Shown here: positions 7,635 to 53,057 of the stretch, one piece after another
Position numbering within the stretch: position 1 is the stretch's first letter
Layout of the letters: every line of letters begins with the position of its first letter
Assembly: GCF_027247405.1 (NCBI RefSeq)
Contig: NZ_CP097463.1
Span: 3,658,001-3,722,000 of the forward strand
DNA: 64,000 bases
From: Jatrophihabitans cynanchi
GTDB lineage: Bacteria; Actinomycetota; Actinomycetes; Mycobacteriales; Jatrophihabitantaceae
Reading direction: 5' to 3'
Translations under genes and position numbers: made by a program
The notes under the pieces: model-generated
Told to the model about the DNA's origin: nothing
The model's database searches: none
Seen by the model: only the letters and a program-made list of their open reading frames with translations

Positions 7635-7880
7635 TCAGAACGGTGGTGGTTGGTCGTTGGGGTCGGGTCCGGTCTGCTTCGGTGGTTCGGGTTCGGGTTC
7701 GGGTTGGGGGACGGGTAGTTCGGGTGGTCGGTAGTGGTAGTGGTGTCGGGTTGCCGAGGTCCAGTGGTAGGTGCCGTCGGGGGTGCGGGTGAGGGTCCAG
7801 CCGGCGTGGTGTTTGAGGTCGTGATGCCGCTTGCAGAGGGGTTCGAGGTTGGTCACGCTGGTGGGGCCGTCGGGCCAGGG
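7635..7880 (-). pseudogene. 13E12-type HNH protein, C-terminal fragment
   Basis: On the minus strand this reads PWPDGPTSVTNLEPLCKRHH and ends in a Pro-rich tail with the PPPF terminus typical of the 13E12 family. It is the missing end of the gene whose N-terminal 400 residues lie at 12723-13931. Joining 12723 to 7880 after removing one CCC gives HRTP-WPDGPTS in frame, which restores the HNH zinc/nuclease motif. The IS3 insertion therefore cut the catalytic HNH motif in two. Confidence 0.9.
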
Positions 7881-7907
7881 TGAACCGGCACGGGTTCTCT
7901 GCCGTCT

Positions 7908-8231
7908 TCATGCTGTGCTGCCGACGGGGTTGAGGGCAGCGTAGTGGGCGTGCTCGTACTCGACCGGCGTGATCATGTTGAGCGAGCTGTGCAGGCGCCG
8001 GTTGTTGTACCAGTCGACCCAGCCGGCGGTCGCGAACTCCACGTCGGAGACGGTCTTGTAGGGCCCGTCGTGGAAGATCGTGGTGCGGATGCACTCGGTC
8101 TTGTACAGGCCGTTGATCGTCTCCATCAGCGCGTTGTCGTAGGCGTCGCCGACCGACCCGATCGAGGGCCGGATGTCTTCGAGCGCCAGGTGCTCGGTCA
8201 GCGTGATGGAGGTGTACTGCGTGCCGGCATC
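7908..8231 (-). pseudogene. IS3 transposase orfB, C-terminal part
   Basis: This is the second half of the integrase core, reading DAGTQYTSITLTEHLA, then SIGSVGDAYDNALMETING with the catalytic Glu. WVDWYNNRRLHSSL follows, typical of IS3/IS51 orfB. The first half lies at 11717-12361, and the break falls right at the HHSDAG motif holding the second Asp. The pieces are separated by the RIT element, so no functional transposase can be made. Confidence 0.9.
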
Positions 8232-8234
8232 GGC

Positions 8235-8256
8235 GCTAAGCCGAATTCGGCTTAGC
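8235..8256. repeat. 22-bp perfect palindrome at the RIT left end
   Basis: The sequence reads GCTAAGCCGAATTCGGCTTA followed by GC and equals its own reverse complement. It lies between the IS3 remnant and the RIT inverted repeat and has no counterpart at the other end. Each half contains TAAGCCGA, which resembles the TATGCCGAGG and TAAGCCGAGG words inside the inverted repeat. It may therefore be a recombinase site or a junction scar. Confidence 0.7.
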
Positions 8257-8341
8257 AGCGATTATGCCGAGGTCTGCGTTATGCCGAAGGTCGGCGGGAT
8301 CCCCTTTGCTGGCAGGGCTGCGTGACTGATTCCTCGGCTTA
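8256..8341 (+). repeat. RIT terminal inverted repeat, left
   Basis: This 86-bp sequence matches the reverse complement of 11638-11723 at 82 of 86 positions. Inside it TTATGCCGA occurs twice, 17 bp apart, in direct orientation, and a CTCGGCTTA word lies inverted at the inner edge. These are plausible binding sites for the three recombinases. Confidence 0.92.
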
Positions 8342-8353
8342 ACGATCCGGCGG

Positions 8354-9397
8354 TTAGCGGAGGCTGTAGAGGGCCTGCAGTCGCTCCTTCGTGAGTCGGC
8401 GCGCCTGGGGTGTCGTGACGGCTGGGGTGGCGGCATCGACGGCTTTGCGCATCATGTCGACGGTGGCGAAGGCGTAGAACGCCGAGGTGGTCGACATGTT
8501 CTCGTGGCCGAGGAGTCGCATGATGATCGGCAGCGCGATGCCCTGCTGGTAGAGGTCCATCGCTTTGGTCTTGCGCAGCATGTGGCAGTGGATGTCTTCG
8601 GGAATCGAGGGACATCTTCGGCGTGCGGTTGTGGCGGCGCGTTTGAGCACTGCGGCGACGGTGTCGGTCGACAGCGCGGTCGGTGCCCCGTTGTGCAAGC
8701 TGTAGAACACCGGGCGGGTCGTTTCGGTTCGGGCGATGCCGGGGTGGAACTCGGCGAGGTAGACGTCCAGGTGTTCGATCGTCTTCGCGGTGAGCGGGAC
8801 GACGCGGGTCTTGTCACCTTTGCCGGTGAGGACCACATGGCCGGGCCGGTGCAGGTGCAGGTCGGCCAGCGTCATGGCGGTGAGCTCACCGACGCGGGCG
8901 GCGGTGTCGTAGAGCAGGATCAGCAGCATCCGGTTCCGCCGCGATTTCGGGGTGCGGCCGGTGAATGCGGCGAGCACCGCGCTCGTCTCGGGTTCGGTGA
9001 GGTACTCGATCGGTTCCCTCGCCGCGGTGGGTGCGCGCAGCGTCTTGGCTTGCTGGCTGACCGTGACGAGGGTGAGGTCTTCGGCCGCGCAGTAGGCCAG
9101 GAACGCTTTGACGGCGGTGAGCCGCAGGCCGATCGTCCGTGGCGCGTAGTGCTGCTGCCCGCCCATCCAGGCGAGCCATCCTTTCAAGTGCTGCCGGTCG
9201 AGATGGTCGAAGCTGACGTGTGCGCGGGCGACGTGGTGCTGTTCGGCGAGGTAGCGCAGGAGGCATTCCAGGCTGATCCGGTAGGCCTCGACCGTGTTCG
9301 CCGAGCGGTGCGCCATCGTCGGCAGGTAGACGTGCAGGTAGTCGCGGGCGTAGCGGTAGAAGTCCGGTTCGCGGGTCGCTCGGTCATGCTTGGTCAT
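8354..9397 (-). CDS. RIT tyrosine recombinase, third gene (RitC-like)
   Basis: Start ATG at 9397 (MTKHDRATREPDF) gives 347 residues and a 14-bp overlap with the preceding gene. A longer open frame to 9757 would run through that gene and is rejected. There is an N-terminal SAM-like core-binding domain (about residues 10-110). The catalytic domain has Arg in DTAARVGELT, His-x-x-Arg in CHMLRKTKA, a second His in LLGHENMSTTS and Tyr in SAFYAF. All active-site residues look present. It is the last gene of the trio and presumably acts with the other two in moving the element. Confidence 0.88.
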   Translation of the reverse strand: MTKHDRATREPDFYRYARDYLHVYLPTMAHRSANTVEAYRISLECLLRYLAEQHHVARAHVSFDHLDRQHLKGWLAWMGGQQHYAPRTIGLRLTAVKAFLAYCAAEDLTLVTVSQQAKTLRAPTAAREPIEYLTEPETSAVLAAFTGRTPKSRRNRMLLILLYDTAARVGELTAMTLADLHLHRPGHVVLTGKGDKTRVVPLTAKTIEHLDVYLAEFHPGIARTETTRPVFYSLHNGAPTALSTDTVAAVLKRAATTARRRCPSIPEDIHCHMLRKTKAMDLYQQGIALPIIMRLLGHENMSTTSAFYAFATVDMMRKAVDAATPAVTTPQARRLTKERLQALYSLR

Positions 9398-10370
9398 CGA
9401 ATCCGACCTCCGGCAGCAGCGACTGGCCTGCGGTGGTGAGTCCGTCGTAGGCGTGCAGGAACTCCGGCGAGGTGTGGATGTAGTAGAACGTCGACTCGAT
9501 GCTGGCGTGGCCCATGTAGCGGGCCAGGTAGGGAAGCATCGCCATGACGTCCTTGCCCTGCGCCATCCAGCGATCGACGTTGGCGTAGGCGAAGTGATGC
9601 CGGAAGGCGTAGGGCGTGGGCTGCACCCCGCCGCTCGGCCGTGAAAGAGCGGCCTGGTGCCAGATACGCCGGAAGATCTCATCGATGGTCGCGCCTGTGA
9701 CCTCGTTGCCGGTCCTCGAGATGAAGAAGGTGGCCCGTGACGGTCCGAAATGCGCACGCGTGATGCGGTCGCACTTGGCCAGAACCCTCGTGACGTCGGC
9801 AGTGAGCGGGAGCCTTCGCGACCGGTTGCCCTTGGAGTCGACCACGTCGAGGGTCCTGTCGCGCAGGTGCACGTGCTCGGGGCGTAGCCGCCGGGTCTCC
9901 CCGGTCCGCAGCCCGCAACAGTGCATCAACGTGAAGAACGCGACCGACTGCCACCGCCACGGCGACGCCGCCCGCACCGCCGCCGCAGTAGCGAAGAACG
10001 CCTCGATCTCCGCCTCGCCGAGCAAGTAGGGGTGCGTGGGCAGGCGTTGAGCCTTCCACCGGTCCGACAAGACGTAGGCGTCACACTGCCCGTGGGCCTG
10101 CAGCCAGCGGCCGACATCGCGGATGTAGGACATCCAGGACCGGTAGGGGCCCGTGCGGGCCAGACGCTCGCTGACCCATCCCTCGACCGTGTCGCGGTCG
10201 AACACCGTCCGGTCGTGAGAGGTGCAGTAGGCGTCGAACTGCCTCAGGTACCAGACCCTGGAGGCGCCGTAGAACCCCATCTGCTCCTTGAACGCGAGGT
10301 AGGCGGCAAGGTGCGGTGCGAACGCGCTGGTGAAGTCATGGCCGTTCGCGGCCAGCGCCTTCGTGCTCAT
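9384..10370 (-). CDS. RIT tyrosine recombinase, second gene (RitB-like)
   Basis: A 328-residue phage-integrase-family protein. The core-binding domain (about residues 20-120) is followed by a catalytic domain with Arg in CCGLRTGETRRL, His in YAFRHHFAYANV, a second His in YMGHASIESTF and Tyr in TFYYIHTSPE. The second catalytic Arg of the His-x-x-Arg motif is not obvious after FRHHFA, so this subunit may be catalytically weak or play a structural role. The start ATG overlaps the stop of the first gene (ATGA), so translation is coupled. Confidence 0.88.
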   Translation of the reverse strand: MSTKALAANGHDFTSAFAPHLAAYLAFKEQMGFYGASRVWYLRQFDAYCTSHDRTVFDRDTVEGWVSERLARTGPYRSWMSYIRDVGRWLQAHGQCDAYVLSDRWKAQRLPTHPYLLGEAEIEAFFATAAAVRAASPWRWQSVAFFTLMHCCGLRTGETRRLRPEHVHLRDRTLDVVDSKGNRSRRLPLTADVTRVLAKCDRITRAHFGPSRATFFISRTGNEVTGATIDEIFRRIWHQAALSRPSGGVQPTPYAFRHHFAYANVDRWMAQGKDVMAMLPYLARYMGHASIESTFYYIHTSPEFLHAYDGLTTAGQSLLPEVGFDDQA

Positions 10371-11572
10371 GGCCGCGCGCCGGCGGGGACGTCGAGGACG
10401 CAGTCGAGCAGGCGCACGACATCGACGCTCAGATACAGGTCAGTCGATTTCGGCCGCGCGTGGCCGAGCACGGCCGCGATGGTCGGCAACGGCACCGACG
10501 CCCTCAGCAGCCGTGTCGCGGCGTTGTGCCGCAACAGACGCGTGCTGCCCAGCACGTCCGCGACGCCGGCCCGACGGAACACCGTGGTGATCACCCGGTG
10601 GACCGTGGCGTGGTCGGCCAGCCGCGTGTGCGGGGCCACCGAACGCACGAACAGATGCTCGTCCGGCGAGTCTGGCCGCTGGTCAAGGACGTACTCGGCA
10701 AGCCGGTCGACTACCAGATCGGTCAGCGGCACTGTCAGCGGGTTGTGGGTCTTCTGCTGCACGAGGCTCGCGGTCCGTGCCCGCCAGTCGATGTCGTCAC
10801 GAAGCAGACTGATGATGTCGCATGCGCGCAGCCCCGTCGTGACCGCAAGCAGCGTGATGGCAGCATCCCGTGCCGGTATAGCCGGCGTTGCGCATGCCTG
10901 CACGATCAGGCGCTGCGCCTCGTCCGGCAGCGCCGGCACGATCCGGTGAGAGCGCTTGAGGCCAGCCAACCCGAGCGCGTCGACCAGGTCGCTGCGGCCG
11001 GTGAACTTCAAGAACGGGCGGAAGTTCGACACGACCCAGAACAGCGACGACGTCTTCCACGTAGCCGTCAACGAGTTCAGGTAGCTCAGCACGCTCGCCC
11101 CGTCGGCGTCACGGAGACGGCGGATCCCGCCTGCCTCCAGGAACACCAGGTAATCGCGAGCGACCCGGCCGTAGGCATCCCGGGTCGCGGACGCGAGAGC
11201 CCGGTCAGCCATGTCGGCCTCCCACGCGCCAACAAGCCGGACGAACTCCCGCGAGACAGGACGGGGCCCGCCCCCGCCACGGGTGCAGCAAGCCAACTCG
11301 ACCCGGCCCGTGGTGACGTAGGAGTTGAACACGCGGACCAGCCGTCCGTAGTCGAACCGGCGCTGCACGCTGAACCTGCCCGTCCGCGGGCTGATCGTCA
11401 TCGCCGCGAACTCCGCACCCAGCGCCGGTGTGTACTTGCCGCCCCGCCCGTCGGCGAGTTGCGTCAACGCCCTGATCGACTTCTCGTAGTTGCCGATCGT
11501 TGACTCCATATAGCCGGCCGCGCGCAGCTCCGCGACAACAACCGACCCGATCCCCGTGACCGTCATGTCCAT
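10367..11572 (-). CDS. RIT tyrosine recombinase, first gene (RitA-like)
   Basis: Start is taken as ATG at 11572 (MDMTVTGIG), because GGAGGAG lies about eight bases upstream; an ATG at 11620 has no such site. This gives 401 residues. The N-terminal arm and core-binding region span about residues 1-200. The catalytic domain has Arg in TTGLRACDIISLL, His-x-x-Arg in LLRHNAATRLL, a second His in VLGHARPKSTD and Tyr in DLYLSVD, so it is complete. This is the promoter-proximal gene of the three. Confidence 0.88.
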   Translation of the reverse strand: MDMTVTGIGSVVVAELRAAGYMESTIGNYEKSIRALTQLADGRGGKYTPALGAEFAAMTISPRTGRFSVQRRFDYGRLVRVFNSYVTTGRVELACCTRGGGGPRPVSREFVRLVGAWEADMADRALASATRDAYGRVARDYLVFLEAGGIRRLRDADGASVLSYLNSLTATWKTSSLFWVVSNFRPFLKFTGRSDLVDALGLAGLKRSHRIVPALPDEAQRLIVQACATPAIPARDAAITLLAVTTGLRACDIISLLRDDIDWRARTASLVQQKTHNPLTVPLTDLVVDRLAEYVLDQRPDSPDEHLFVRSVAPHTRLADHATVHRVITTVFRRAGVADVLGSTRLLRHNAATRLLRASVPLPTIAAVLGHARPKSTDLYLSVDVVRLLDCVLDVPAGARP

Positions 11573-11637
11573 GGCCGTCTCCTCCTCCGCATCGCGAATG
11601 GACACGGCGGACGCTGCCACCGAACAGGCCCAAACGT

Positions 11638-11723
11638 TAGCCCGAGGAATCAGTCACGCAGCCCTGCCAGCAAAGGGGATCCCGCCGATCCTCGGCATAA
11701 CGCAGACCTCGGCATAATCGCTG
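11638..11723 (-). repeat. RIT terminal inverted repeat, right
   Basis: This is the reverse-complement partner of 8256-8341 (82/86 identical). Its outer seven bases (CAGCGAT on the minus strand) coincide with what IS3 orfB would have at that point (CAC AGC GAT for His-Ser-Asp). The insertion site therefore resembled the element's own tip. Confidence 0.92.
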
Positions 11724-12361
11724 TGATGGATCAGCCGGCCGGGCTCGGGCTGGTGACCTTCGCGGTCGCGTTGCCACAGCGCGATGCGCAGCGGCGTCAT
11801 GACCAGCTCTACGGCCTTGGTCGTGGCGGCGTGCCAGGCGACGATGCGTTGGGCGAAGACGTCGACGATGAAGGCCACGTAGACGAACCCGGCCCAGGTG
11901 CGCACGTAAGTGAAGTCGGTGACCCACTTCTCGTTCGGCGCGGTCGCGGTGAAGTCCCGGTCGAGCAAATCACCGGCACGCCGGCCGTCCTTGGCCCGGA
12001 TCGTGGTGCGCACGCCCTTGGCGCGGCGAATCCCCTGATGCTGCAAGGTTTTCATCGCCCGCGCCACCGTACACTCGGCGACGACGAGACCGCGCCGACG
12101 CAGCGCCGCGGTCAGCTTGCGCCGCCCGTACAGACCCTCCGGGGTCATGCGCAGCACGCCGTGCTCGTCACGCGCCCAGCACAGCGTCGTGATCTCATCA
12201 ATCAGCTGCGCGTCGCTGACCGTGCGCGCCGCCGGCGCGCTGGTGCGCCACGACCGGTAGGTCCGCGCGGCGACCTGGCAGCCCTGCTCACGCAGCACCC
12301 GGCAGGTCGACTCGACCGCGTGGCCCTCGACGCGCATCTGGTCGATGAACCCCATGATCAT
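11717..12361 (-). pseudogene. IS3 transposase orfB, N-terminal part
   Basis: It begins at ATG 12361, which overlaps the orfA stop (ATGA); an orfA-orfB fusion by frameshift is also possible, as in other IS3 elements. It contains the HTH_21 helper region (DEHGVLRMTPEGLYGRRKL), the linker, and the start of the rve integrase core. The first catalytic Asp is in WVTDFTYVRTW, and the second Asp sits at the break in IHHSD. After that the frame runs into the RIT inverted repeat. Confidence 0.9.
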
Positions 12362-12669
12362 CGGTTGCGGGGGTCGAGTTCCCCCACGAAGAAAGTCGTC
12401 GCCGCTTTCAAGATCGCGACATCTTCCCGCAGCCGGGCGTTCTCGGCCTTGAGCTTCTTGATCTCCGCGTGCTCGACCGAGGTGGTCCCCGGCCGGGCGC
12501 CGGCATCGACATCGGCCTGCAGCACCCACCGGCGCACCGTCTCGGTGCCCAGCCGCTCCTGCTTGGCCACCGCCGCTGAGGCAGCGGTCAGGTTCGGGTA
12601 CTCAGCGCGATGCTCCAGCACCCGACGCACAGCCCGCTCCTTCACAGCGGGATCGATCTTCTTGGGCAT
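12358..12669 (-). CDS. IS3 transposase orfA (HTH_Tnp_1)
   Basis: A 103-residue protein with an N-terminal helix-turn-helix (residues about 8-55: VKERAVRRVLEH, LTAASAAVAKQERLGTETVR). It is followed by a leucine-zipper-like coiled coil (EIKKLKAENARLREDVAILK) and the typical ATTFFVGELDP end. It binds the element's inverted repeats and is normally fused to orfB by programmed frameshifting. The gene is intact but its partner orfB is broken. Confidence 0.92.
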   Translation of the reverse strand: MPKKIDPAVKERAVRRVLEHRAEYPNLTAASAAVAKQERLGTETVRRWVLQADVDAGARPGTTSVEHAEIKKLKAENARLREDVAILKAATTFFVGELDPRNR

Positions 12670-12722
12670 GTCGCCATCCTTCCTGACTCACAAGGAAGCG
12701 GCATCAAACCCGTACCGGTTCA

Positions 12723-13938: not shown

Positions 13939-13966
13939 ATTCTACAGCACCGACTTGACTTGTCAA
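13939..13966 (-). promoter_or_regulatory. consensus promoter of the split 13E12 gene, leaderless
   Basis: On the minus strand TTGACA (13966-13961) is followed by a 16-bp spacer and TAGAAT (13944-13939). The ATG comes seven bases later. Transcription should begin at or beside the start codon, giving a leaderless mRNA. This is the best -35/-10 pair noticed in the window. Confidence 0.75.
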
Positions 13967-14050
13967 CCCTTGAGGATGGACTTTCGCCTTATTTTATCGG
14001 CAGGTCCCGACAGAACCACGACGTCCGGACCGGATGCAAACCACAGCGGA

Positions 14051-14287
14051 AGGCGACCCAGCAGCGCAACCCGACCGAGCGCCCAGCTCCGCGTCGGTGC
14101 GCACTTCGACGCGGCGCAACCCGAGCAAGAGGCGACCCGGCAGCGGCAACCGGCCGAGCACCCAGGTCCCCGTCGCCGCGAACTTCGAGGCGTCGTAACC
14201 CGAGCGAGAGTCGACTCGGCGGCGTAGGCCGACCGAGTACTCAGCTCCTCCTCGGTGCGCTCTTCGACGGGCACAGCCCGCACGAAA
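14051..14287 (-). repeat. three degenerate 79-bp tandem repeats upstream of the 13E12 gene
   Basis: Units begin near 14051, 14130 and 14209, each about 79 bp. On the plus strand each starts like AGGCGACCCGGCAGCG and passes through a GAGC-CCCAG-TCC block and a CTTCGACG block. Read on the minus strand they contain GCGCACCGACG and GCTGCTGGGTCGC words. The same words are found in repeats upstream of the other 13E12 gene at 52.6-52.96 kb. The rest of 13967-14463 holds no recognised gene. Confidence 0.65.
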
Positions 14288-14463
14288 GGTAACCGGGAAC
14301 CGTGTTTCCGGAGCGCGAGCCCTGCCGCCGCCGCGTTCTTCGACGGGGCACGAGCACAGCGACGGGCGAACGTGGCGCACTTGTGGGATTCCGGGCCGGG
14401 TCGACTTCCCTAGCGTCGAGCGGGCCGGCATCCGCAGCACCGCGCCCAGGGGGATCGACGAGA

Positions 14464-16365
14464 ATGACGCCCACCCGACGAGCCACGATCCTCCTGGTCG
14501 CCGCGGCGGCGACGACCGTCGCGGTAGCCCCGGCGCACGCGGCGCCCACCCGGCGGAATTGGTCCCCGCCACCGCCACGTCCGACCCGGCTGACGCCGGC
14601 TTACCCGACCCGGCTGACGCCGGCTGACCCGACCCGGCTGACGCCGGCCGACCCGACCCGGCTGACGCCGGCTGACCTGCCGGCCGACCCGCCCGCCAGC
14701 CCGACGTCAGCCGATGCGGCGCGCGACCGATCATCCGACGGTGGCACGCAACCGGCAGCGGTCACACCCAGTACCGCCGGCAGCGTCGTGTTCATCCGGG
14801 CCGACAACGTCTGGATCGCCCGCCCGGACGGATCGGCAGCGCGCCGGCTGACGAGCAACGGCACCGCTGCGACGCCGTACCGCTACCCGTCCGAGGACGA
14901 CGCCGGCACGGTGGTCGCGCTGCGCGGAAACGCGATCACCCGGCTCGATCAGGCCGGTCACGTGCTGGCGAGCTTCGCGGTTCCGACCCCTGGCCTCGGC
15001 GTCGACTTCGCCTCGGTCTCCCCGGACGGCAGCACGGTCGCCTATTCGTGGCTCGGCGCGTACACCGACTGCAGCTTCACCCCGTGCCACACCTTCTTCG
15101 AGCACAGCCTCGCCTACACGTCGGCGGCGCGCAGCCACCCGATCAGCGGCGGGCCCGGCGACGTCCAATGGGCGAGTTGGGTGACGAACCGCCGTGTGGT
15201 CGTCGGTGGCCCGAACGAGGACATCCGCTACACCGATCTCGGCGCGACGAACAGCAGCGAGTGGTACACCGACTGCAACTACTCCGGCTCGACCTGCGCG
15301 AGCGACCCGTCCGCCGAGTTCTGGAACCTGTTCCCCGCCGTCAGCAGGCAGGGCGACCGGTATGCGAGCGTGATCGTCAACCTGGACAACAACGGCGGCG
15401 GCCCGCGGCAGACCTTCCTCAACGTGCTGAACACGGCGAACTTCGGCACCGCCGACCCGCCGGCCGCACCGACCGCGCGCTGCGTCGTCAACGGGATCGC
15501 GACACCGGGTGACTGGCCGGCGTCCACCGACGCGACCGTCCAGACGCCGTCCTGGTCGCCGGACGGACGCTCGCTGGTGACCGCCTTCGAGAACGCTGCG
15601 CACCAGTGGCAGGTCTGGCGCGTCGACGTCGGGACGGACGTCACCGACTGCGACTCCTACGCCGGCGGGCCGATCCTCACCGACGCCACGCAGCCGCGCT
15701 GGGGCAAGGCGGCACTGCGGATGCCGACGACCACGACGCTGTCGGTGTCCAGCGCCGCACCCGTGTACCAGCACACCCTCACCCTGTCGGCGCGGGTGAA
15801 CACCACGGCCGCAACGGGATCGGTGCGCTTCCGCGAGGGCAGCAAGGTGCTCGCCACCGTCGCTGTACAAGCCGGTCGGGCAACCTTCCGGACCACCCGC
15901 CTCGGCGCCGGGCCGCACAGCCTGAACGCGGTCTACCTCGGCAGCGGCGCCCTGTACGGCTCGACCTCGCGCGCGACGGTCGTGACCGTCCAACCGACCA
16001 CCCCGCCACGGGGCTGGAAGTTCCACCGGGTCACGTCGACCCGGCTGATCGCGACGAGGCTGGCCGCACGCAGGGCAGTGGACGTCCGGGCCGCGAGACG
16101 CAGTCCGGTGCCGTCCACCGCGAAGGGAGTCCTGCTGCGGCTGGTCTTGTCGCACGGCACCGCCACGACGCGCGTCTACGTGTGCCCGCGCCCGCGAACC
16201 GGCTCCGGCATCACGCCGCGATCCTGCTGGCCACACGCGATCCGGGCTCGGCACACCGGCAGCTGGTACGGAATCAGCCGCATCGGCCGGCGCTACGACG
16301 TGCGGCTCTGGAACCGCACCGGACGGATCAGCGCCCGCCTCTACGTCTACGGCTACTACACGTAG
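14464..16365 (+). CDS. secreted beta-propeller protein with bacterial Ig-like domain
   Basis: A 633-residue exported protein. A Sec signal peptide (ILLVAAAATTVAVAPAHAA) is cut near residue 27. Then comes a low-complexity linker with four PTRLTPAD-type octapeptides encoded by 24-bp DNA repeats (about 14580-14675). The central part (about residues 100-420) has PD40/TolB-like blades such as SPDGSTVAYSW and WSPDGRSLVTAF. An Ig-like domain follows (about 420-510: TGSVRFREGSKVLATVAV), then a Cys-containing C-terminal domain. The function is probably an extracellular or envelope-bound binding protein. Start ATG at 14464 is preceded by a GGGGGA site. Confidence 0.7.
   Translation: MTPTRRATILLVAAAATTVAVAPAHAAPTRRNWSPPPPRPTRLTPAYPTRLTPADPTRLTPADPTRLTPADLPADPPASPTSADAARDRSSDGGTQPAAVTPSTAGSVVFIRADNVWIARPDGSAARRLTSNGTAATPYRYPSEDDAGTVVALRGNAITRLDQAGHVLASFAVPTPGLGVDFASVSPDGSTVAYSWLGAYTDCSFTPCHTFFEHSLAYTSAARSHPISGGPGDVQWASWVTNRRVVVGGPNEDIRYTDLGATNSSEWYTDCNYSGSTCASDPSAEFWNLFPAVSRQGDRYASVIVNLDNNGGGPRQTFLNVLNTANFGTADPPAAPTARCVVNGIATPGDWPASTDATVQTPSWSPDGRSLVTAFENAAHQWQVWRVDVGTDVTDCDSYAGGPILTDATQPRWGKAALRMPTTTTLSVSSAAPVYQHTLTLSARVNTTAATGSVRFREGSKVLATVAVQAGRATFRTTRLGAGPHSLNAVYLGSGALYGSTSRATVVTVQPTTPPRGWKFHRVTSTRLIATRLAARRAVDVRAARRSPVPSTAKGVLLRLVLSHGTATTRVYVCPRPRTGSGITPRSCWPHAIRARHTGSWYGISRIGRRYDVRLWNRTGRISARLYVYGYYT
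14580..14675 (+). repeat. 24-bp coding tandem repeat (four copies)
   Basis: Units of CGACCCGGCTGACGCCGGCT plus four bases encode PTRLTPA followed by Tyr or Asp. The copies are nearly identical at DNA level. That suggests recent expansion and possible length variation in the linker between signal peptide and propeller. Confidence 0.85.
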
Positions 16366-52312: not shown

Positions 52313-52604
52313 TCCAGAGGACGCGAAGCTGCTGACGCTCGCGCGTTCGGCCCGGGCGCGCACCCGGGTCGAGCAGGGGGCGGCCGTGCGCGACACCGAC
52401 GGGCGCACCTACGTGGCCGCCACCGTGACGTTGCCGTCGTTGCGGTTGAGCGCACTGCAGGTGGCTGTCGCGATGGCGGTGTCCTCCGGTGCACTCGGGC
52501 TGGAGGCGGCGGTGGTGTTCGGCGACGACGCGACCGACGAGGCGGGTGCTGCGGCGGTGCGAGATGTCGCGCCCGATGCGCTCGTGTTCACCATCGCGGG
52601 CTGA
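52299..52604 (+). CDS. cytidine-deaminase-like small protein
   Basis: 101 residues, ATG 52299 inside the end of the CBS gene. It resembles a degenerate cytidine-deaminase fold: [26 protein letters not shown]. The zinc-binding HxE and PCxxC residues are missing, so deaminase activity is unlikely. The same small gene lies between the CBS protein and era in Mycobacterium. Here era is 3.8 kb further on. Confidence 0.8.
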
Positions 52605-52960
52605 GCGGGTTCGCGCCGGGTCGGCTAGCGCCGCCGGGTTGCCTCCGCCGGTAGTGAAGGGGCGCACCGACGGCCTTGATCGCGCGGCTCGCGCTGCCGG
52701 GGTCGCGTTTCGTCCTTGGTGAAAGGCGCACCGACGGTGGCAGTTCGCCTCCGGGTCGGCTCGCCCTGCCGAGTCGCGTTCCGGACGTGGTGGGCAGCGC
52801 GACGATGGTGGCGGTTGCTCTCGTGCCTGGCTCGCGCTGCTGGGTCGCGCTTCGTGCGTGGTGAAAGGCGCACCGACGGTGACGGTTGCTCTCGCGCCTG
52901 GCTCGCGCTGCCGGGTCGCCCCTTGCGCTGGGCTGCTGGGTTTGCGTCTGTCGTGGTCGA
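52605..52960 (+). repeat. degenerate 64-71 bp tandem repeats upstream of the intact 13E12 gene
   Basis: GCGCACCGACGG or a near match begins units at 52662, 52726, 52797 and 52868, spaced 64, 71 and 71 bp. Each unit runs through GGCTCGCGCTGCCGGGTCGC and, in several, ends with GTGGTGAAAG. The first partial unit starts near 52610. The same words occur upstream of the other 13E12 gene. No gene is recognised in 52605-53064. Confidence 0.7.
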
Positions 52961-53051
52961 GTCCCGATGCGCATGTTCCGATCGCCCGAAAATTCGCCGA
53001 GGAATCTCCAGTAACGGCGTGTTTCGGGTGAAATCTGTCGGTGACACCTGC

Positions 53052-53057
53052 TATTAT
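53052..53057 (+). promoter_or_regulatory. -10 element TATTAT of the intact 13E12 gene, leaderless
   Basis: TATTAT ends seven bases before ATG 53065, the same geometry as the promoter of the other 13E12 gene. No good -35 is visible. Confidence 0.55.

Follow-up and report, generated by a model that had tools for sequence, protein, structure and literature searches.

A two-box repeat array upstream of 13E12 (DUF222-HNH) genes looks like part of a relocating gene unit in four actinobacterial genera

The closest described relatives of the genes analyzed here are the 13E12 genes of Mycobacterium tuberculosis (REP13E12), which are described as showing characteristics of mobile elements (PMC5005354) and as hotspots of gene conversion (PMC13061034), and are reported to be controlled by LexA/RecA upon DNA damage (PMC8151990, PMC5005354). 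Like them, the genes of the present study are multicopy chromosomal DUF222-HNH genes, with the difference that the DNA-damage regulation reported there is predicted here and that, unlike under LexA/RecA control, the promoter is of the PafBC type, judging by its sequence. It shares with the mycobacterial promoters of PafBC, a regulator of the RecA-independent DNA-damage response, the motif tTGTCRgtg-N8-TAnnnT located right before the gene (PMC5656591; variants in PMC8151990), but whereas the reported PafBC promoters serve repair genes, those considered here are found on DUF222 genes of many actinobacteria, in four genera with a two-box array ahead of them. A third point of comparison is given by the free-standing HNH homing endonuclease genes, which likewise are intergenic nuclease genes with an intact HNH motif that spread to new places; however, an array is untypical of those genes, and the copies studied here occupy many unrelated loci. 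Finally, mycobacterial interspersed repetitive units (MIRUs) are tandem intergenic units of similar length that often abut stop codons. Unlike the array units described below, MIRUs are, to our knowledge, not linked to a single gene family. In summary, the 13E12 gene family and its damage control are already known, and what is new, being absent from the literature searched, is the dedicated two-box array, its tight coupling to the gene, and the limits that can be set for the relocating unit. The same searches found no description of an upstream two-box array for REP13E12 or of PafBC-type promoters on DUF222 genes.

The window, i.e., the whole stretch of 64,000 nucleotides from Jatrophihabitans cynanchi that we analyzed, contains two 13E12 genes, one intact and one split, each preceded by a repeat array (Table 1). 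The intact gene starts at ATG 53065 and not at a GTG further upstream. Its DUF222 domain (Pfam PF02720) scores 140.8 bits, compared with 81.4 bits in the split gene, and its C-terminal HNH domain (PF01844, 27.5 bits) has retained an intact HNH motif. In the split gene the HNH domain is cut off and lies at 7880-7638, 4.8 kb from the rest of the gene and beyond an IS3-type insertion. This insertion (7881-12722) ends in the inverted repeats TGAACCGGTACGGGTT and AACCCGTGCCGGTTCA, with a possible 3-bp duplication (CCC), and contains an IS3-family transposase gene together with three consecutive tyrosine recombinase genes (8354-11620) in a recombinase-in-trio arrangement. Divergent from the split gene, its neighbor (14302-16365) codes for a protein that looks secreted and has an Ig-like domain, with a 24-bp tandem repeat close to the start. 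Translation probably begins later than at the listed GTG (14302), and the ATG at 14465 agrees with a signal peptide. The complete host genome of 4.5 Mb holds 24 DUF222 matches with PF02720, which makes the family multicopy. The split gene belongs to a group of paralogues (group A) that are 78-95% identical to each other, and the intact gene to a second one (group B, 88-94%). Proteins of groups A and B share only about 24% identity over most of their length, and group B is nearer (about 38%) to two genes without an array (L001 and L007).

Table 1. Positions of the 13E12 genes, their promoters, and their upstream arrays in the window
Feature	Position	Strand	Basis or remark
Group A array, split gene	14036..14348	minus	TRF and unit model
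Group A, three good units	14036-14108, 14110-14187, 14191-14269	minus	79-bp units
Group A, decayed fourth unit	14272-14348	minus	unit model
Split gene promoter, TTGACA-N16-TAGAAT	13939..13966	minus	7 nt before ATG
Split group A 13E12 gene, 5' part, 403 codons	12720..13931	minus	
Split group A 13E12 gene, 3' part, HNH end (equivalent to residues 403-479)	7638..7880	minus	
Group B array, intact gene	52607..52931	plus	five 64-71 bp units
Group B, five units	52607-52652, 52658-52720, 52721-52792, 52797-52860, 52863-52931	plus	
Intact gene PafBC-type promoter, CTGTCGGTG-N8-TATTAT	53035..53057	plus	7 nt before ATG
Intact 13E12 gene (DUF222 + HNH), 458 aa	53065..54441	plus	Pfam

Tandem Repeats Finder (TRF) reported 2.9 copies of a 79-bp period ahead of the split gene (14051-14280) and a 71-bp period ahead of the intact gene (52686-52919), and a profile built from 21 units on the basis of sequence only (R1) extends both arrays beyond these limits. 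The original prediction had counted three 79-bp units before the split gene and four to five units of 64-71 bp before the intact one. Both TRF and the unit model agree with the first count, the latter adding the decayed fourth unit, and the second count can be settled at five, two of which match the unit model poorly. The interval first proposed for the split gene, 13939-14287, takes in the promoter and the array, but contains the fourth unit only in part. The words GCGCACCGACG and GCTGC(C/T)GGGTCGC, which had been read as common to both arrays in the direction of the gene, are indeed present in both. The group B array begins 3 bp past the stop codon of the gene upstream. Under closer inspection, a unit consists of two conserved boxes, GCGC(R)(S)CGACG and CGCTGC(Y)GGGTCGC, laid out as GAAgnGCGC(R)(S)CGACGR followed by CGCTGC(Y)GGGTCGC, with box starts about 36-38 bp apart. 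The period amounts to 79 bp in group A, 70-71 bp in group B, and about 72 bp in an array-bearing genome of another genus (G006), and arrays comprise about one to six units.

A scan of the host genome with R1 (E≤1e-3) yielded 18 unit clusters, all of which lie on DUF222 genes or their remnants; none was located away from the 13E12 family. Fourteen are positioned directly upstream of a DUF222 gene and in the same orientation, including two cases in which an insertion sequence parts the gene and the N-terminal codons still adjoin the array. The other four, which at first seemed to be orphans, sit on group B remnants: one retains promoter-proximal sequence of group B with the gene gone (L029), and in the others the array is joined to the last 28 residues (L030), to 58 HNH residues (L033), or to the last codons, NYPLKT, and the stop (L031). 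The proposed tie between a conserved array and 13E12 genes is thus borne out, and the unit is not widespread elsewhere in this genome. Six other 13E12 loci of the same genome have no array.

Outside the host genome, the array is confined to few relatives. A second profile, built from 22 units of four genera (R2), matched only the host genome (46 matches) and three draft assemblies, G006 (23), G007 (12), and G016 (8), among 24 genomes of the family (E≤1e-4), and the same four genomes were the only positives among 250 genomes of the order (E≤1e-5), the unit being absent from the other 246. Of the clusters in the three draft assemblies, 15 precede the start of a DUF222 gene or a remnant, six reach the end of a contig, and five have no DUF222 gene in the same orientation. 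The array-bearing genes found there represent further DUF222 subfamilies in three other genera: the one in G016 is 53% identical to an array-less gene (L022), and those in G006 are about 40% identical to L001, L007, and group B. At one locus in G006 (C63, L293), the array leads into a promoter resembling that of group A (TATAAAATAAGG) and then a DUF222 gene that has an internal deletion and ends in DPGPPPF, which indicates relatives of group A in another genus. We took single weak R1 matches in other families of the order to be due to chance, as no DUF222 gene was nearby at the loci inspected. None of 40 other DUF222 genes that we examined has the unit signature upstream, while a weak unit-like sequence was recognized by eye before one gene each in G013 and G007. 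Absence from other 13E12 loci, which had been named as evidence against the original prediction, therefore applies in part: the unit is restricted to four genera of one family and to part of the DUF222 subfamilies, and the majority of 13E12 genes elsewhere are without it. Given this distribution, the array is a lineage-specific module that 13E12 genes in general do not need, and we rejected the notion of a universal 13E12 feature. We also rejected an array carried by phages or plasmids: no DNA match was obtained among 50,697 records for phages and 72,556 for plasmids, and protein relatives were lacking in phage and limited to distant ones in five plasmid records. Scans of viral contigs returned no relatives, a scan of genome contigs only a distant Corynebacterium match, PADLOC no known defense system, and a search for solved structures no relative.

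Between array and gene lies the promoter, which in the intact gene reads CTGTCGGTG-ACACCTGC-TATTAT in full and fits the pattern YTGTCR..-N7/8-TAnnnT. In the split gene the TGTCRG box is degraded, and it is intact in five paralogues (L010, L011, L014, L016, and L019); group A has kept the −10 element together with a TTGACA −35. The −10 element precedes the ATG by exactly seven bases in both genes of the window (TAGAAT and TATTAT), as had been noted originally. To assess the promoter more broadly, we used a regular expression for the PafBC motif with a start codon 3-12 bases on, and found such a motif just before the start codon at 50 of the 112 non-duplicate DUF222 loci, which represent many families (the loci examined include L092-L096, L101-L106, L114-L119, and L251-L253), and in none of 656 control windows taken from these loci. 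The leaderless promoter thus generalizes well beyond the two genes for which it was proposed, and these counts identify a PafBC-type, leaderless promoter as the common predicted promoter of DUF222-HNH genes across actinobacterial families, with a predicted role in the DNA-damage response. As a separate observation, DnaA-box 9-mers (TTRTCCACA or TGTGGAYAA) are found in the 450 bp preceding 21 of 112 DUF222 loci (L084-L089, L101-L104, L109-L111, L113, L117, L119, and others) and in 2 of 690 control windows, counts that are not independent since the copies are related.

Comparison of copies at unrelated loci delimits the unit. Group A copies resemble each other up to and including the stop codon and are unrelated right after it, and the far half of the split copy (7880-7638) ends at this same right limit; group B copies share it as well, two of them having about 11 further bases in common. 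On the upstream side, homology continues beyond the promoter over one to five units and breaks off at a variable point. The unit thus has defined ends at unrelated sites, with the right end at the stop codon and the left end variable within the array. In 7 of the 9 cases in which both neighbors could be called, the gene upstream of the unit runs in the same direction and the one downstream is convergent with it, i.e., a tail-to-tail arrangement, with orientations being approximate because neighbor genes were called by GC-frame. Taken together, the shared array, promoter, and gene, the end of homology at the stop codon, and the tail-to-tail sites suggest that array and gene behave as one relocating unit, which looks to have been inserted after a stop codon, although the tail-to-tail bias could reflect survival and not targeting. 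The junctions, compared by eye and with no empty site of the same genus among the comparisons, show no consistent target duplication. The same pattern is seen in a further genome of the family (G014), where seven similar, array-less DUF222 copies have homology limits about 125 bp before the ATG and shortly before the stop. The reading frames of these multicopy genes (L084-L090) do not stop where homology ends but continue into the flanking DNA, which gives each copy its own C-terminal tail, and the left limit of homology between them starts at a DnaA box.

Could the array instead be a genomic landing site, a target or homing footprint into which 13E12 genes insert? A few arrays are now gene-less (C411, C549, and C118 in G007; C490 in G006), as such a reading would expect, but every gene-less array of the complete genome has a 13E12 promoter or C-terminal remnants. 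Two empty sites were available in several relatives, one after the cytidine-deaminase-like gene that ends at 52604 and one after a recB-like gene (at L014): both have the same upstream gene and then a nearby, apparently convergent gene, with neither array nor DUF222 gene. Since these two empty sites lack the array, gene-less arrays of the complete genome bear remnants, and copies at unrelated sites have the array in common, the homing footprint of the original prediction is weakened to an unlikely explanation; the array moves with the gene instead of marking empty targets.

We then focused on whether the repeats themselves are constrained. With box positions set by a fixed register and not by sequence, box columns are 82% (group A) and 84% (group B) identical, as opposed to 68% and 59% for the linkers, and the true register lies at most one base from the best of all 79 (A) or 71 (B) offsets. 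Both boxes recur in all four genera and in several DUF222 subfamilies that have diverged from each other, and chance similarity of GC-rich DNA was rejected by the profile-model searches. Because boxes are more constrained than linkers, the regulatory or recognition region that had been suggested for the array is plausible, even though most 13E12 genes do without one. The main rival to this operator or recognition reading is that the array is a passive hitch-hiker, that is, functionless tandem-duplicated DNA at the 5' end of the relocating 13E12 unit that grew by slippage or repair. The variable copy number, the fast divergence of the linkers, the many DUF222 genes without array, and the unrelated tandem repeats upstream of other DUF222 loci (L113, L114, and L118) are all in line with it, and units at matching positions across copies are no closer to each other (0.766) than other units are (0.761), so that loose hitch-hiking also fits. 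However, it accounts poorly for boxes that are the same in four genera and several divergent subfamilies and clearly better conserved than linkers in both groups, and we regard it as possible but clearly the less probable of the two. Far less credit is due to the idea that the array encodes a structured or guide-like RNA, or a coding repeat. HNH nucleases of the IscB kind, with an RNA encoded upstream, offer a precedent, but a domain search found no RuvC domain here, single-strand folding of the array is no better than that of shuffled sequences (z = 0.32, 0.95, 0.55, and −1.41), one pair of nine is compensatory, and none of the periods (79, 70, and 71) is divisible by three. We rejected both versions on these grounds and consider them very improbable.

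What is seen in the sequence, then, is a fixed order and orientation, a near-exclusive association, co-inheritance of array and gene, a sharp right limit, a preference for tail-to-tail sites, and boxes conserved above linkers. We favor, with a probability of roughly 0.55, the reading that a small relocating gene unit has the array as its 5' module and that the two-box repeats serve as a multi-site protein-binding operator or recognition array. The unit would run from the two-box array through a short spacer and a PafBC-type promoter to a leaderless DUF222-HNH (13E12) gene ending at the stop codon. Each repeat would be bound by a protein, which may be that of the 13E12 gene or a DNA-binding factor of the host, and the array may act as an operator or recognition platform that sets the expression or handling of the gene once DNA damage turns on the promoter. 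Box sequences vary with the host genome more than with the DUF222 subfamily, with identical boxes in groups A and B at about 24% protein identity and slightly different ones in G006 and G016; a host factor or exchange between arrays therefore fits no less well than would binding by the individual 13E12 proteins. Copies probably spread via ectopic recombination or via repair following a putative HNH cleavage step. It is tempting to speculate that array and gene form an autonomous one-gene mobile element, in which the damage-induced HNH protein binds its own 5' array and copies the unit into tail-to-tail intergenic sites up to its own stop codon, but we hold this bolder version to be doubtful, with a chance of about one in five by our own reckoning.

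The 13E12 family, which is repeated in most actinobacteria and has long been unclear in function and mobility, now has limits, a 5' array and a 3' stop codon, and gains a likely switch in the form of a PafBC-type promoter that DUF222 genes of many families have in common. In four genera, it also comes with a dedicated repeat array of 70-80 bp units with two conserved boxes. With limits, promoter, and array defined, binding, cutting, induction, and movement become directly testable.
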